A DNA stretch of 34,946 bases from Victivallaceae bacterium (GTDB lineage: Bacteria > Verrucomicrobiota > Lentisphaeria > Victivallales > Victivallaceae): NCBI GenBank assembly GCA_028718375.1, contig JAQULZ010000011.1:1-34946 (forward strand), given 5' to 3'. Shown piece after piece: positions 2,615 to 34,830 of this stretch (position 1 is the stretch's first letter; each line of letters opens with the position of its first letter). The position numbers and the translations under genes were made by a program. The notes under the pieces are model-generated. The model was not told the origin of the DNA. It saw nothing but the letters and a program-made list of their open reading frames with translations, and ran no database searches.

Positions 2615-3466
2615 ATGCTTGAACTGGGAAAAATCAACCGGCTCGAAGTTCGCCGCACTGCGGATTTCGGAATGTTTCTGGGAAACGGTGAAGATGAAGT
2701 GCTGCTGCCGTGCAAATACGTCCCCGCCGGTACGGAAATTGGTAATGAACTCGAAGTTTTCGTTTATCCGGATTCGGAAGACCGACCGGTCGCGACTACG
2801 CAGAAACCGAAAGGCATGGTCGGCGATACGGTATTCCTGGAAGCGGTCGACGTAACCGGGATCGGCGCGTTTCTCGACTGGGGACTGGACAAAGACCTGT
2901 TCGTGCCGTTCAAGGAACAAAAAGAACCGATGGTCAAAGGCCGGAGTTATGTGGTACGGATAGTTTTCGACCGGGTCAGCAACCGGATTTTCGGCTCCGC
3001 CCGGTTGCACGTTTTCGCGAGAAAAACCCATGAAAATAATTTTTCCGTCGGCGACCGGGTGGAAATACTGGTTTGCGCTGAAGCAGAACACGGTTTCAGC
3101 GTGCTGATTGACCGCCGCTATCTGGGGATGCTCTACAAAAGCGACCTGCACCGGGCGGTTAAAGTCGGCGAGACGCTGCCGGCCTATATTTCCCGGCTGC
3201 GCGCCGACCGGAAAATTGACGTCAGCTTGCGGAAACCGGGATTTTTCGGGATTATCCGGGAAAAACCGTTGATCTTGGAGAAACTCCGGGAAGCCGGGGG
3301 ATTCCTGCCCTTCAACTCCAAGTCTTCACCGGAAGAAATCGAAAATTATTTCCAAATCAGCAAACGGGTTTTCAAGCAGGCGATCGGCAACCTCTATAAG
3401 GAACGCCGCATCACCGTTACCGCCGATGGCATAAAACTGAATTGCTCCCGGCAATCATCCCGCTGA
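2615..3466 (+). CDS. cvfB: CvfB/YitL-family S1-like RNA-binding protein
   Basis: A 283-residue cytosolic protein. The start at 2615 (MLELGKINRLEV) is preferred over the in-frame ATG at 2582 because an AAGGAA site sits just upstream and family members begin this way. The N-terminal part (RRTADFGMFLGNGEDEVLLP) and the second part (VTGIGAFLDWGLDKDLFVP) are two S1-type OB folds, followed by a third S1-like segment and a C-terminal winged helix (NYFQISKRVFKQAIGNLYKERRI). This is the CvfB layout and the length fits (about 280-300 residues). Known: CvfB binds RNA and affects virulence gene expression in staphylococci, but the molecular role elsewhere is unclear. Its end converges on the HIT gene with only nine bases between. 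Confidence 0.85.
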   Translation: MLELGKINRLEVRRTADFGMFLGNGEDEVLLPCKYVPAGTEIGNELEVFVYPDSEDRPVATTQKPKGMVGDTVFLEAVDVTGIGAFLDWGLDKDLFVPFKEQKEPMVKGRSYVVRIVFDRVSNRIFGSARLHVFARKTHENNFSVGDRVEILVCAEAEHGFSVLIDRRYLGMLYKSDLHRAVKVGETLPAYISRLRADRKIDVSLRKPGFFGIIREKPLILEKLREAGGFLPFNSKSSPEEIENYFQISKRVFKQAIGNLYKERRITVTADGIKLNCSRQSSR

Positions 3467-6436: not shown

Positions 6437-6522
6437 AATTATTGCGGATGCCGGAAGCGTCAAAACGGCGCCGCAAGAATCCGACCGTACACGGCAGCAT
6501 GCTTTTGGGCTAGTTCACCAGC

Positions 6523-6601
6523 AAAAAGAATACTGCGATATACCTATCGCTCATTATTTTTGCCGGCAACTCAGCCTCAAAATCAAAGCTGTTTTTACTA
6601 G
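6523..6601. repeat. left part of a dispersed repeat interrupted by the 270-bp element
   Basis: AAAAAGAAT, a variable stretch, then ACCTATCGCTCATTATTTTT, GCCGGCAACTCAGCCTC and AAAATCAAAGCTGTTTTT match 34736-34815 almost base for base. The repeat is cut at CTAG (6598-6601) by the 270-bp insertion and appears to resume at 6872-6890, where CTAGCTATTAGAATGCAAT corresponds to CTGGCTGTTAGATGCAAT in the uninterrupted copy. Confidence 0.7.
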
Positions 6602-6871
6602 TGTCAAGTCAAGCCTGTAAGGTCGTCAAGACCGAGAGGATTTGTGCAAAGCTGTCGAGCGTTGTTGGCGCAGGGCGATGCTGCCCATCGGACAAGTCGG
6701 TAACGCTCGACAGAATGCACAAGCCCCCGGCCGCCAAGCGGTTGCGTTCATCCGCCCCTGGATTGCGCGACTCTGACTAAGCCGTTACCTCGGTAGCGGC
6801 ATGTCAGATTCGAGACAATCCAGCATCCGGATGATTCGCAGTCTTGTTGACCTTACAGACTTGACTTGACA
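6602..6871. mobile_element. 270-bp structured MITE-like element with 23-bp terminal inverted repeats and CTAG duplication
   Basis: The ends are inverted repeats: TGTCAAGTCAAG, then CCTGTAAGGTC at 6602-6624, against the reverse complement at 6849-6871, 22 of 23 bases matching. CTAG flanks both sides (6598-6601 and 6872-6875), and the uninterrupted relative near 34812 has a single CTGG there, so CTAG looks like a 4-bp target duplication. Inside are two folded arms. Arm one: TTGTGCA and CTGTCGAGCGTT (6642-6663) pair with AACGCTCGACAG and TGCACAA (6702-6722). Arm two: CTGGATTG/CAATCCAG, CTGAC/GTCAG and GCCGTTACC/GGTAGCGGC nested within 6758-6823. No long open frame is present. It is either a non-autonomous transposon or a mobile structured RNA gene. 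Confidence 0.75.
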
Positions 6872-7861
6872 CTAGCTATTAGAATGCAATTCAGTATTAA
6901 ATTCAAAATCCAATAATTCTTTGTCTGTCAAACGCTTGAGTTCCAAGAAACGGTCGGAATTCATTCCCCACATCATTCCGGCGTATTCCAGGAATTTTCC
7001 CCGGCAATATAATTTTCTCTCCGTCCGGGCAATTTCCTGCAGCGTCCGGAAAAAATACCGCCGGTTCGCTTCCGCGGCCGGCCCGGCCCGACCAACCGAC
7101 CGGAAATTGCGGATCAGAAACGGATCGCGCAACAGCCCGCGCGCAATCATCGCCCCGGTGCAGCCGGTTCCAAGGCAATCCCGCACATCTTCTTCGGAAA
7201 ACATATCGCCGCTGGCAATGACCGGCACCTTTCCCGCCCAGGCGGTCAGACATCTGAATCGTTCGGCCCGCAGCGTCACCGGCAGATACAGCTCGCCAAC
7301 CGTCCGGTAATGTACTCCGATGAAGTCCAGCGTGCCGGTTCCGGCCAGGGCGGGAATGATCCGTTCGCTTTCCCGCCAGTCCGCGCAACCGGAGCGCAGT
7401 TTGACGCTGAGTGAAACCTCCGGCAAAACGTTCTTCACTGTATGAAGGATTTCCGTCATCAGGGAAATATTCCGGAGCAGCGCACCGCCGGCGCCGCTCC
7501 GGAGCACCTGCCGGCTCGGACAGGCAAAATTCAGGTTGACGCCTTTGATGCCCAGTTCCGCCAGGCATTTGGCGACTGCCGCCAGCAAGGCGGGACTCGT
7601 TCCCATCACCTGCCCGATCACCGGCAATCCGGCGTGCAGATAAGGCTGGAGGAATTTTTTCAGCCGCGCCGGTTTGGGAACATTGGTGGTCACCCGGTAA
7701 TAAGGAGTGAGCCAGCCGTCGGTCAGCCGCAGTTGATGAAATGCCCGGCAGAACAACGGGGTAATCACTCCTTCCATCGGGCCGGGAAAAAAACGCGGGA
7801 AATTCAGCCCGGACGCAAATACAAAAGTATTTTCACCGCACGCCGGGCGGGCGGAAATCAC
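6872..7861 (-). CDS. tRNA-dihydrouridine synthase (Dus family)
   Basis: A 329-residue FMN enzyme that reduces uridine to dihydrouridine in tRNA. FFPGPMEGVITPLFCR opens the TIM barrel. GVNLNFACPS holds the catalytic cysteine (C114), then SGAGGALL; VKLRSG and GVHYRT are further barrel and FMN-binding motifs, as is IASGDMFS. The form of the CPS.QV...GAGGALL block is nearest the DusC/DusA groups, but the subclass is uncertain. The start is GTG at 7861 within GTGA, overlapping the upstream gene's stop, which implies translational coupling. The last codons (HSNS) and the TAG stop come from the repeat and the CTAG duplication of the inserted 270-bp element, so the natural C-terminus has been altered. 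Confidence 0.88.
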   Translation of the reverse strand: MISARPACGENTFVFASGLNFPRFFPGPMEGVITPLFCRAFHQLRLTDGWLTPYYRVTTNVPKPARLKKFLQPYLHAGLPVIGQVMGTSPALLAAVAKCLAELGIKGVNLNFACPSRQVLRSGAGGALLRNISLMTEILHTVKNVLPEVSLSVKLRSGCADWRESERIIPALAGTGTLDFIGVHYRTVGELYLPVTLRAERFRCLTAWAGKVPVIASGDMFSEEDVRDCLGTGCTGAMIARGLLRDPFLIRNFRSVGRAGPAAEANRRYFFRTLQEIARTERKLYCRGKFLEYAGMMWGMNSDRFLELKRLTDKELLDFEFNTELHSNS

Positions 7862-11268: not shown

Positions 11269-11577
11269 AGCAAAAATAAAATGAAAAAAAAGATGTAACG
11301 CCGCGGTGATCCAACGGCCGACTTTGCGCAGGCTGAAACACCGCGTAACGACGTCGGCAATTTATCCTCATTTTTTTATCGCCGGCAACAAAAACCAGGC
11401 CGCTGATCACCATTAACCGCAGCAGCAATTTTTGCCGGAAATTTCAATTTTTATACCAAGTTGATCAAAAATATGGAGTTCTTCGCCGGTTTATGACATA
11501 AACAAGTTCAAAAAGCGAAAAACCTGAAAGACCAATATTTTTCCCGCCGTAGTATCGTTTTTTTCAATTATGCGCTT
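11269..11577. other. intergenic stretch without a supported gene
   Basis: No supported gene. A 61-codon minus-strand frame (11243-11428) has a hydrophobic start but no ribosome site and runs into the TPR gene, so it is not called. ATACCAAGTTGATCAAAAAT at 11453-11476 is a short repeat also found at 11969. Confidence 0.3.
11453..11476. repeat. short ATACCAAGTTG repeat (copy 1)
   Basis: ATACCAAGTTGATCAAAAAT followed by ATGG. Copy 2 at 11969-11994 differs by two inserted bases (ATACCAAGTTGCGATC, then AAAAATATAG). Both are preceded by TTT or TTTT. These may be ends of the same mobile unit. Confidence 0.5.
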
Positions 11578-11737
11578 ATACTAATGAGCGATCAGTCATA
11601 GATAATGGCGATGGCGGATTTTGAGATGGATTTTGGTTATAAACCGCAGAGCGATACAGAGTATCGCGCGAGGATTTATGGCAAAAATCGGCTCAAAAGA
11701 ACCATCGAAATGCCTATGAATGAGAGCGAATTGGTAT
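11578..11737 (+). repeat. 160-bp palindromic element, copy A
   Basis: Exactly 160 bases, with imperfect inverted ends (ATACTAATGAGCGATCAGTC here, ATACCAATTCGCTCTCATTC on the other strand, both reaching TCATAGA). It contains the perfect hairpin GCGATACAGAGTATCGC (11651-11667). Copies at 30271-30430 (minus orientation, one mismatch by eye) and 34576-34735 (minus) show it is dispersed and recent. A frame begins MAMADFEMDFGYKPQSDTEY and stays open through the copy and on to 11769, but no protein family is recognised and coding is not claimed. Confidence 0.85.
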
Positions 11738-11824
11738 TAAGATTCATTTCTGATTTATTTTTCAGTTAAATTTTTCAAACGTAAAAAATAATACAGAACA
11801 TTTTTTATTCATTAAAGTGCTGAA

Positions 11825-29981: not shown

Positions 29982-30270
29982 AATAATACCGATTTGCAAT
30001 CTAAGAGCAAGTAAAAATAGGTATTGGTATGAGCTTGACAAGACCAGGGTTCTGACGAAAAAAACTCATTGAAAGATTCACATTTTTATTTTATCCGTCG
30101 TTTAGATCGCGGTTCTCTTTAGAAGGCAAATTCGCTGATCCACGGCAGCGGGATCAGCCGTTTTGCCTATTATCGGTGAGCATCATCAACGACAGTCTGG
30201 TGGGCTGGAAATCCGACGGAATGCCGGATGATGACTCCGGAATCCGCGGCGGACCCGGATACCGAAGCTG
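29982..30270. other. repeat-rich gap after nnr
   Basis: ATACCGATTTGCAATCTAAG (29986 on) is the partner of 6406. GAGCTTGACAAGACCAGG (30031 on) matches the palindrome at 12202-12227 in reverse. AGGCAAA..GCTGATCC (30124-30141) pairs with GGATCAGC..TTTGCCT (30151-30167), a hairpin of unknown use. A broken frame at 30177-30270 (IINDSLVGWKSDGMPDD) leads into the 160-bp element. No live gene. Confidence 0.45.
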
Positions 30271-30430
30271 ATACCAATTCGCTCTCATTCATAGACATTT
30301 CGATGGTTCTTTTGAGCCGATTTTTGCCATAAATCCTCGCGCGATACTCTGTATCGCTCTGCGGTTTATAACCAAAATCCATCTCAAAATCCGCCATCGC
30401 CATTATCTATGACTGATCGCTCATTAGTAT
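30271..30430 (-). repeat. 160-bp palindromic element, copy B
   Basis: Reverse orientation relative to copy A, 159 of 160 bases identical by eye. Both ends are intact. The bases on either side (frames giving GIRGGPGYR before, and VDDKIGVGGESLPLANSQYL after) look like two parts of one gene now cut by the element, but no family is recognised. Confidence 0.85.
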
Positions 30431-30581
30431 GAAATGAGGAGTGTGGACGATAAAATCGGGGTCGGCGGGGAATCGCTGCCGCTGGCCAACAGCCAGTATC
30501 TGATCGGCGGCAAAAAACTGAATTGGTAATTCAACCCCCCGGCAAACCGTTCGGAAGCGCCGCCGGACGGTTGCCTGCGGT
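30431..30581. other. tail of a possible broken gene and a hairpin after it
   Basis: From 30435, MRSVDDKIGVGGESLPLANS, then QYLIGGKKLNW ends in TAA near 30529, with sensible composition but no start signal. Next, GCAAACCGTTCGG pairs with CCGGACGGTTGC (about 30542-30573), which could be a shared end signal with the S41 gene coming from the other side. No T-run is attached on either side. Confidence 0.3.
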
Positions 30582-34498: not shown

Positions 34499-34575
34499 AA
34501 CAGTGATACTCAAGTCGGGACTGCATTTGCGACCTTAACGGTTTGCGTTTCATTACAGATTTTTGAGAAGAACTA

Positions 34576-34735
34576 ATACCAATTCGCTCTCATTCATAGA
34601 CATTTCGATGGTTCTTTTGAGCCGATTTTTGCCATAAATCCTCGCGCGATACTCTGTATCGCTCTGCGGTTTATAACCAAAATCCATCTCAAAATCCGCC
34701 ATTGCCATTATCTATGACTGACCGCTCATTAGTAT
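34576..34735 (-). repeat. 160-bp palindromic element, copy C
   Basis: Same length and orientation as copy B, with two changes from it by eye (one is silent in the frame beginning MAMADFEM). It directly abuts the repeat at 34736-34830, so the two may have moved or been captured together. Confidence 0.85.
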
Positions 34736-34830
34736 AAAAAGAATGTTACGACAGACCTATCGCTCATTATTTTTGCCGGCAACTCAGCCTCAAAATCAAA
34801 GCTGTTTTTTTACTGGCTGTTAGATGCAAT
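34736..34830. repeat. uninterrupted copy of the repeat that holds the 270-bp element at 6602
   Basis: Matches 6523-6601 and then 6872-6890, without the 270-bp insert (ACTGGCTGTTAGATGCAAT here against ACTAG, insert, CTAGCTATTAGAATGCAAT there). It serves as an empty site to define the insertion point. After it, on the minus strand, AGAGGTGATTAA precedes an ATG (34840) that gives only MNSIASNSQ and a stop: perhaps a gene start cut by the repeat. Confidence 0.65.

Follow-up and report, generated by a model that had tools for sequence, protein, structure and literature searches.

What is the folded 270-bp insert that lies between two CTAG sites in the DNA of a Victivallaceae bacterium, and what moves it? 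We analysed a contig stretch of 34,946 bp (the window), in which the initial annotation had described a mobile element with stacked arms and suggested either a structured RNA that moves or a folded DNA substrate for a transposase. We conclude that it is very probably a MITE that lacks a transposase of its own and is likely moved, into the TA of CTAG sites, by an IS630-family transposase whose elements have near-identical ends. The assignment to the IS630 type is based on IS630 elements with matching ends in another genome of the same genus, and on pieces of such elements in the own genome that sit at the same target repeats as the MITE. The element and its borders are as follows.

6602..6871, + strand: MITE, apparently non-coding, 270 bp; 11 full-length copies in the own genome; boundaries from 12 two-ended copies
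6602..6624, + strand: left terminal inverted repeat, 23 bp
6849..6871, - strand: right terminal inverted repeat, 23 bp, one mismatch against the left repeat
6598..6601, no strand: left CTAG; the unit duplicated is likely its TA, 6599-6600
6872..6875, no strand: right CTAG, with TA at 6873-6874

The MITE end sequence is TGTCAAGTCAAGCCTGTAAGGTC. The terminal 23 bases of the window copy agree as inverted repeats at 22/23 positions, which confirms the 23-bp repeats with one mismatch seen initially, and the inverted arms including CTAG and the inner pairs span 40 nt at 88%. The GC content is 56%. The longest stop-free stretch in the six frames is 58 codons, and the earlier statement that there is no coding frame stands in the sense that the element is apparently non-coding. 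It is thus short, apparently non-coding and bounded by terminal inverted repeats, like other bacterial MITEs.

The own genome (G000; 206 contigs, 87% complete, numbered C1, C2 etc.) holds 11 full-length copies on 11 contigs, 94-100% identical. A twelfth two-ended copy, in C136, has a deletion of 68 bases that removes most of the second of two predicted arms. Seven further copies stop no more than 2 bases short of a contig end (C40, C50, C60, C72, C106, C108 and C156), as expected of a repeat that breaks the assembly. The copy in C19 is truncated, only a single end is present in C1, C30, C87, C91 and C185, and C100 and C13 contain two more matches resembling the MITE end. The copies are dispersed, with defined boundaries and with flanks that differ between them. 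The MITE was also sought in 40 relatives, where we found nothing beyond a 24-base end match in G003, a MAG of the same genus, and a distant-mode search of a plasmid collection gave no match.

All 12 two-ended copies (the 11 full-length ones and C136) have CTAG on both sides. In the window CTAG occurs 8 times where 136 are expected from base composition, i.e. about 17 times more rarely, and two of these eight flank the MITE copy at 6602-6871. For two-ended MITE copies flanked by CTAG, duplication of TA and duplication of CTAG are indistinguishable. We gathered 38 distinct combinations of end plus flank, 34 from loci of the own genome and 4 from other genomes. The flanks are CTAG in 31, CTAC in 3, ATAG in 2 and CTAT and GTAG in 1 each; the own-genome share of these is CTAG 31, CTAC 2 and GTAG 1. 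TA is present in 38/38, including the 7/38 that are not CTAG. We suggest that TA is the duplicated unit, since the CTAC, GTAG, ATAG and CTAT ends all keep it. An IS630 element of G003, IS-A (see below), has CTAC on its left and ATAG on its right; these flanks would fit the form C-TA-x ... y-TA-G, in which TA is duplicated within a CTAG target and the terminal base is variable. The proposed CTAG duplication therefore holds as far as CTAG flanks the MITE on both sides, but the unit duplicated is more likely TA.

The choice between TA and CTAG bears on a possible origin of the MITE from an IS5-type element. Elements of that type, too, can duplicate a 4-bp CTAG target, and this has been reported for MITEPsy1 (PMC3189936). 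The CTAG flanks of 12/12 two-ended own copies fit an IS5-type origin, and the end-only MITE copy of C91 has an IS5-type transposase frame (DUF4096) at a distance of about 240 bases. However, the CTAC, CTAT, GTAG and ATAG ends are better explained by a TA whose neighbour varies than by duplication of 4 bp, and the MITE end sequence matches two IS630 elements. An IS5-type origin is thus disfavoured on end sequences, and we consider it the most improbable of the readings discussed here.

Several MITE copies, including the one in the window, sit inside another repeat, here called the host repeat.

6516..6601, + strand: left part of the host repeat; 6516 is not a mapped edge; 16 genome copies of its end
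6872..6897, + strand: right part of the host repeat
34736..34830, + strand: diverged host-repeat copy without the insert, CTGG at the site

The left-flank pattern of the host repeat is present in 16 copies, 3 with the MITE (C11, C75 and C120) and 13 without. The site reads CTAG in nine of the 13 MITE-free copies and CCAG, CTTG, CCAG and CTGG in the other four; six of the nine CTAG sites continue as the window does. As was noted initially, the repeat at 34736-34830 has no insert and its site is CTGG, but CTGG is not the target: with CTAG in 9/13 MITE-free copies, it is a diverged site. The same host-repeat CTAG has been hit in both orientations, the copy in C75 lying opposite to those in C11 and C120, which indicates separate insertions. 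Both a target site duplication and sites without the insert, as found for MITEs, are therefore present.

The host repeat near 6516-6897 and 34736-34830 is modular, with the parts CTGTTTTTACTAG, GTCCGACAGRCTGCTAG and CTAGCTATTAGAATGCAATTCGGTAT joined at CTAG in varied combinations. A frame on the - strand, 6872-7861, resembles tRNA-dihydrouridine synthase by eye; its 3' end lies in the host repeat, and the stop codon falls within the right CTAG. A frame of at least 90 codons stops exactly at the TAG of CTAG at 4/31 of the own-genome ends examined (L036:3053, L037:3197 and ends in L042 and L043), and the one in L036, of 854 aa, resembles leucyl-tRNA synthetase by eye. L036 also contains, at about 2846-3056 and near the end-only copy of C30, a different sequence whose ends (AGTCAAGTTAAAAAGCCTGTAAGG) are related but have diverged. 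At 34574-34740, 30268-30437 and 11576-11739 the window further holds copies of a second repeat, which is about 165 bp long, mostly 96-99% identical between copies and present in at least 40 places of the genome (40 of 121 candidates scored); its predicted fold has a z of -4.5, and 1 of 200 shuffles folded as well.

A search for complete insertion sequences with MITE-like ends, which the initial annotation had proposed, gave two two-ended IS630 elements in G003.

G003, L038:2013-3210: IS-A, 1198 bp; HTH_32/HTH_29 and DDE_3 domains in two separate frames
G003, L128:217-1448: IS-B, 1232 bp; HTH and DDE_3 domains in two frames; CTAG on both sides

The NCBIfam model for IS630 family transposases was the top match for all four pieces of IS-A and IS-B; the two DDE pieces score above its cut-off and the HTH pieces, which also match IS481 or ISNCY models weakly, below it. 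Over 23 bases, the two ends of IS-A are identical to the MITE end at 21 and 22 positions and those of IS-B at 16 and 17; over the first 18 bases, the counts are 17 and 18 for IS-A and 16 and 17 for IS-B. In the own genome, contig C162 ends in the first 122 bp of IS-A (98% identity), C6 ends in a piece of IS-B, and C28 and C126 begin with one (88-94%). Each of these four pieces adjoins CTAG. The C6 flank GTCCGACAGGCTG, before CTAG, and the C28 flank CTATTAGAATGC, after CTAG, match target repeats that the MITE also occupies (e.g. in C21 and C119). The MITE thus has ends in common with IS-A and IS-B of G003 and with pieces in its own genome, as an IS630-type MITE should. Together with the further CTAG-flanked copies and the insert-free sites, these elements bear out the original description of a mobile element with a defined insertion site.

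It should be noted that several observations count against this reading. Both G003 transposases are split over two frames and may not be active, and the IS-A end in the own genome agrees with the MITE end at only 19/23 positions. No intact IS630 element with MITE-like ends is assembled in the own genome, which has end pieces only, and we therefore infer the present source of the transposase. There are four DDE_3 matches in the own genome, and the stretches around them gave no MITE-like end at up to 6 mismatches, a scan in which the C44 stretch starts at a contig end and IS-B-type ends are near the limit. We also considered an intact IS630-type frame in C6 (368 aa) and rejected it; it is just 28% identical to the IS-A N part. 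In blastn searches with IS-A and IS-B, the MITE copies were matched at their ends only or not at all, so that simple internal deletion of either element does not account for the MITE.

The end pattern was found in 3/78 genomes of the family, one of them G003, and a control with the reversed end pattern gave 0 matches in the 78 genomes. In a contig collection, it was found in 5 stretches of 4 records. The MITE interior is absent from all 5 stretches, in a collection from which own-genome records may have been left out. Record JAJSZP010000116.1 (L077), a Deltaproteobacteria MAG, carries the same end and, after it, an HTH frame that is cut off by the contig end, and JAFDFV010000217.1 (L075), also Deltaproteobacteria, has the same end close to what by eye is the apparent tail of the same gene. 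The latter record also contains, at L075:2952-3055 (-), a sequence of about 105 bp, as judged by eye, that apparently arose from the IS-A type by internal deletion. Relatives of the IS-A N part are present in 9/137 genomes of the order, the own genome included. We read the surroundings of such matches, 33-50% identical, in G021 (2/4 places), G114, G037 (1/3 places) and G005, and found no MITE-like ends at up to 7 mismatches, save one unlike match with 7 mismatches in G037.

The predicted fold of the element consists of an end stem, two long arms and one small hairpin.

6633..6729, + strand: first predicted arm, with outer stem, 12-bp exact stem 6652-6663/6702-6713 and tip hairpin
6730..6742, + strand: small predicted 5-pair hairpin between the arms
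6743..6840, + strand: second predicted arm, with imperfect inner stem (exact in copy C147) and 8-pair tip stem

In the first arm, the 12-bp stem CTGTCGAGCGTT/AACGCTCGACAG is exact, the 8-pair stem outside it includes one G-T pair and a 5-pair CGATG/CATCG stem forms the tip; of the three stems described initially as perfect, those of 12 and 5 pairs are so and that of 8 is nearly so. The whole element folds with a z of -13.2 as DNA, and of -13.75 and -12.5 as RNA of the two strands, and the interior alone, 6638-6835, without the terminal repeats, with a z of -7.2; for whole element and interior alike, 0/200 shuffles were as good. The first 288 bases of IS-A have a fold z of -0.4.

The pair test used 12 aligned copies, which amount to 6 distinct rows of 94-100% identity, and its power is low. 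Over these 6 rows, 96.7% of the paired cells are kept; of the 112 pairs, 98 are invariant, 6 vary on one side and 8 depart by loss only. No pair has changed on both sides (0/112), and the observed measures were reached by 500/500 shuffles; the test is weak because the copies are too alike. In C147, unlike in C11 or C120, the 3' side of the second arm is exactly complementary to the 5' side, and in C136 a segment of C120 is present as its reverse complement. The arms of C147 and C136 look rewritten at the DNA level, and changes of this sort could arise by template switching at a DNA hairpin.

The exact arm of C147 and the inverted segment of C136 would fit hairpins that are extruded in the cell. 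This leads to the possibility that the MITE is structure-assisted, i.e. that extruded arms draw the two ends close to each other or flag single-stranded DNA to the transposase, with a branched DNA fold taking part in IS630-type transposition and the folded interior replacing the missing IS body. The z of the interior and the share of kept paired cells speak for it. However, C136 has retained its two ends and the flanking CTAG although little is left of its second arm, so that it either moved without this arm or lost it later. For ISY100, a marker placed between the terminal repeats reportedly moved in vitro (PMC2170065), and no pair has changed on both sides, in a test of low power. We regard a part for the fold in transposition as unlikely. 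Moreover, the claim that stacked arms exceed what a simple MITE needs does not hold: highly base-paired structures are usual for bacterial MITEs, according to PMC3049150 and PMC2229807, and the arms alone do not place the element beyond them. They are unusual in extent, not in kind. Most likely the predicted arms are passengers typical of MITEs and would not be required for the reaction.

A structured RNA made from or through the MITE, such as a regulatory RNA, an RNase III site or an attenuator, might instead be the selected unit. The strong RNA fold predicted on both strands is consistent with this, and stem-forming transcripts of the Neisseria MITE have been proposed as RNase III targets (PMC2229807). 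On the other hand, Rfam, searched over the whole window at gathering thresholds, gave no family, none of the 112 pairs has two-sided changes (a test weakened by low divergence), and transposition already explains the ends and the target. A simple scan found no promoter-like or terminator-like site inside the MITE; a role as terminator was rejected for this reason. The idea of a structured RNA that moves is not supported, also because the MITE resembles a DNA transposon in its ends, its target and its partner, and we consider an RNA as the selected unit very improbable.

The IS630-type MITE thus remains the preferred reading, and we propose the following steps. The transposase of the IS630-family elements would recognise the MITE ends, as their sequences suggest, and act in trans; the MITE would then be inserted by cut-and-paste into the TA of CTAG sites. 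In single-stranded or supercoiled DNA, both predicted arms may fold.

The case offers a clear MITE and its likely IS630 partner type in a little-studied bacterial group; literature searches on MITEs in Lentisphaerae and on insertion sequences in Victivallaceae gave papers whose titles concern other subjects. The CTAG of one repeat is seen with and without the insert, with insertions in both orientations, and the site preference is visible despite the rarity of CTAG in the window. The element is also a handy case for asking if folded interiors help or burden MITEs.

With the IS630 family (IS630 of Shigella, ISY100) the present MITE has TA in the target in common, and it shares its ends with elements that carry an IS630-type transposase; it differs in having no transposase gene. 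A CTAG preference of IS630 is reportedly the subject of a 1991 paper by Tenzen and Ohtsubo, going by its title. ISY100, of the same superfamily, reportedly moves in vitro with its transposase alone and almost always into TA (PMC2170065). MITEPsy1 is a MITE that duplicates CTAG (or YTAA) and has been seen to move in vivo; it differs in being thought of IS5 type, 100 nt long and with other ends (PMC3189936). The CIR repeats of Caulobacter and Brucella share a linker that joins two long arms in a proposed RNA, but are described in PMC2229807 as distinct from other repeats, whose pairing runs end to end, whereas the present MITE has paired ends plus arms. It is most like RUP of Streptococcus pneumoniae, for which movement by IS630-Spn1 has been proposed (PMC3049150, PMC2229807). 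In brief, RUP is short, has terminal inverted repeats that resemble those of an IS630 element of the same species, a TA target, a tight fold and paired ends, so that both the partner logic and the tight fold are already reported there. RUP differs in its 107 bp, 27.5% GC and 108-110 copies per genome (PMC3049150, PMC2229807); the present MITE has 270 bp and 56% GC, is branched in prediction and comes from an unrelated bacterium. The kind is therefore already known, and the element at 6602-6871 is a further example of an IS630-type MITE like the pneumococcal RUP.
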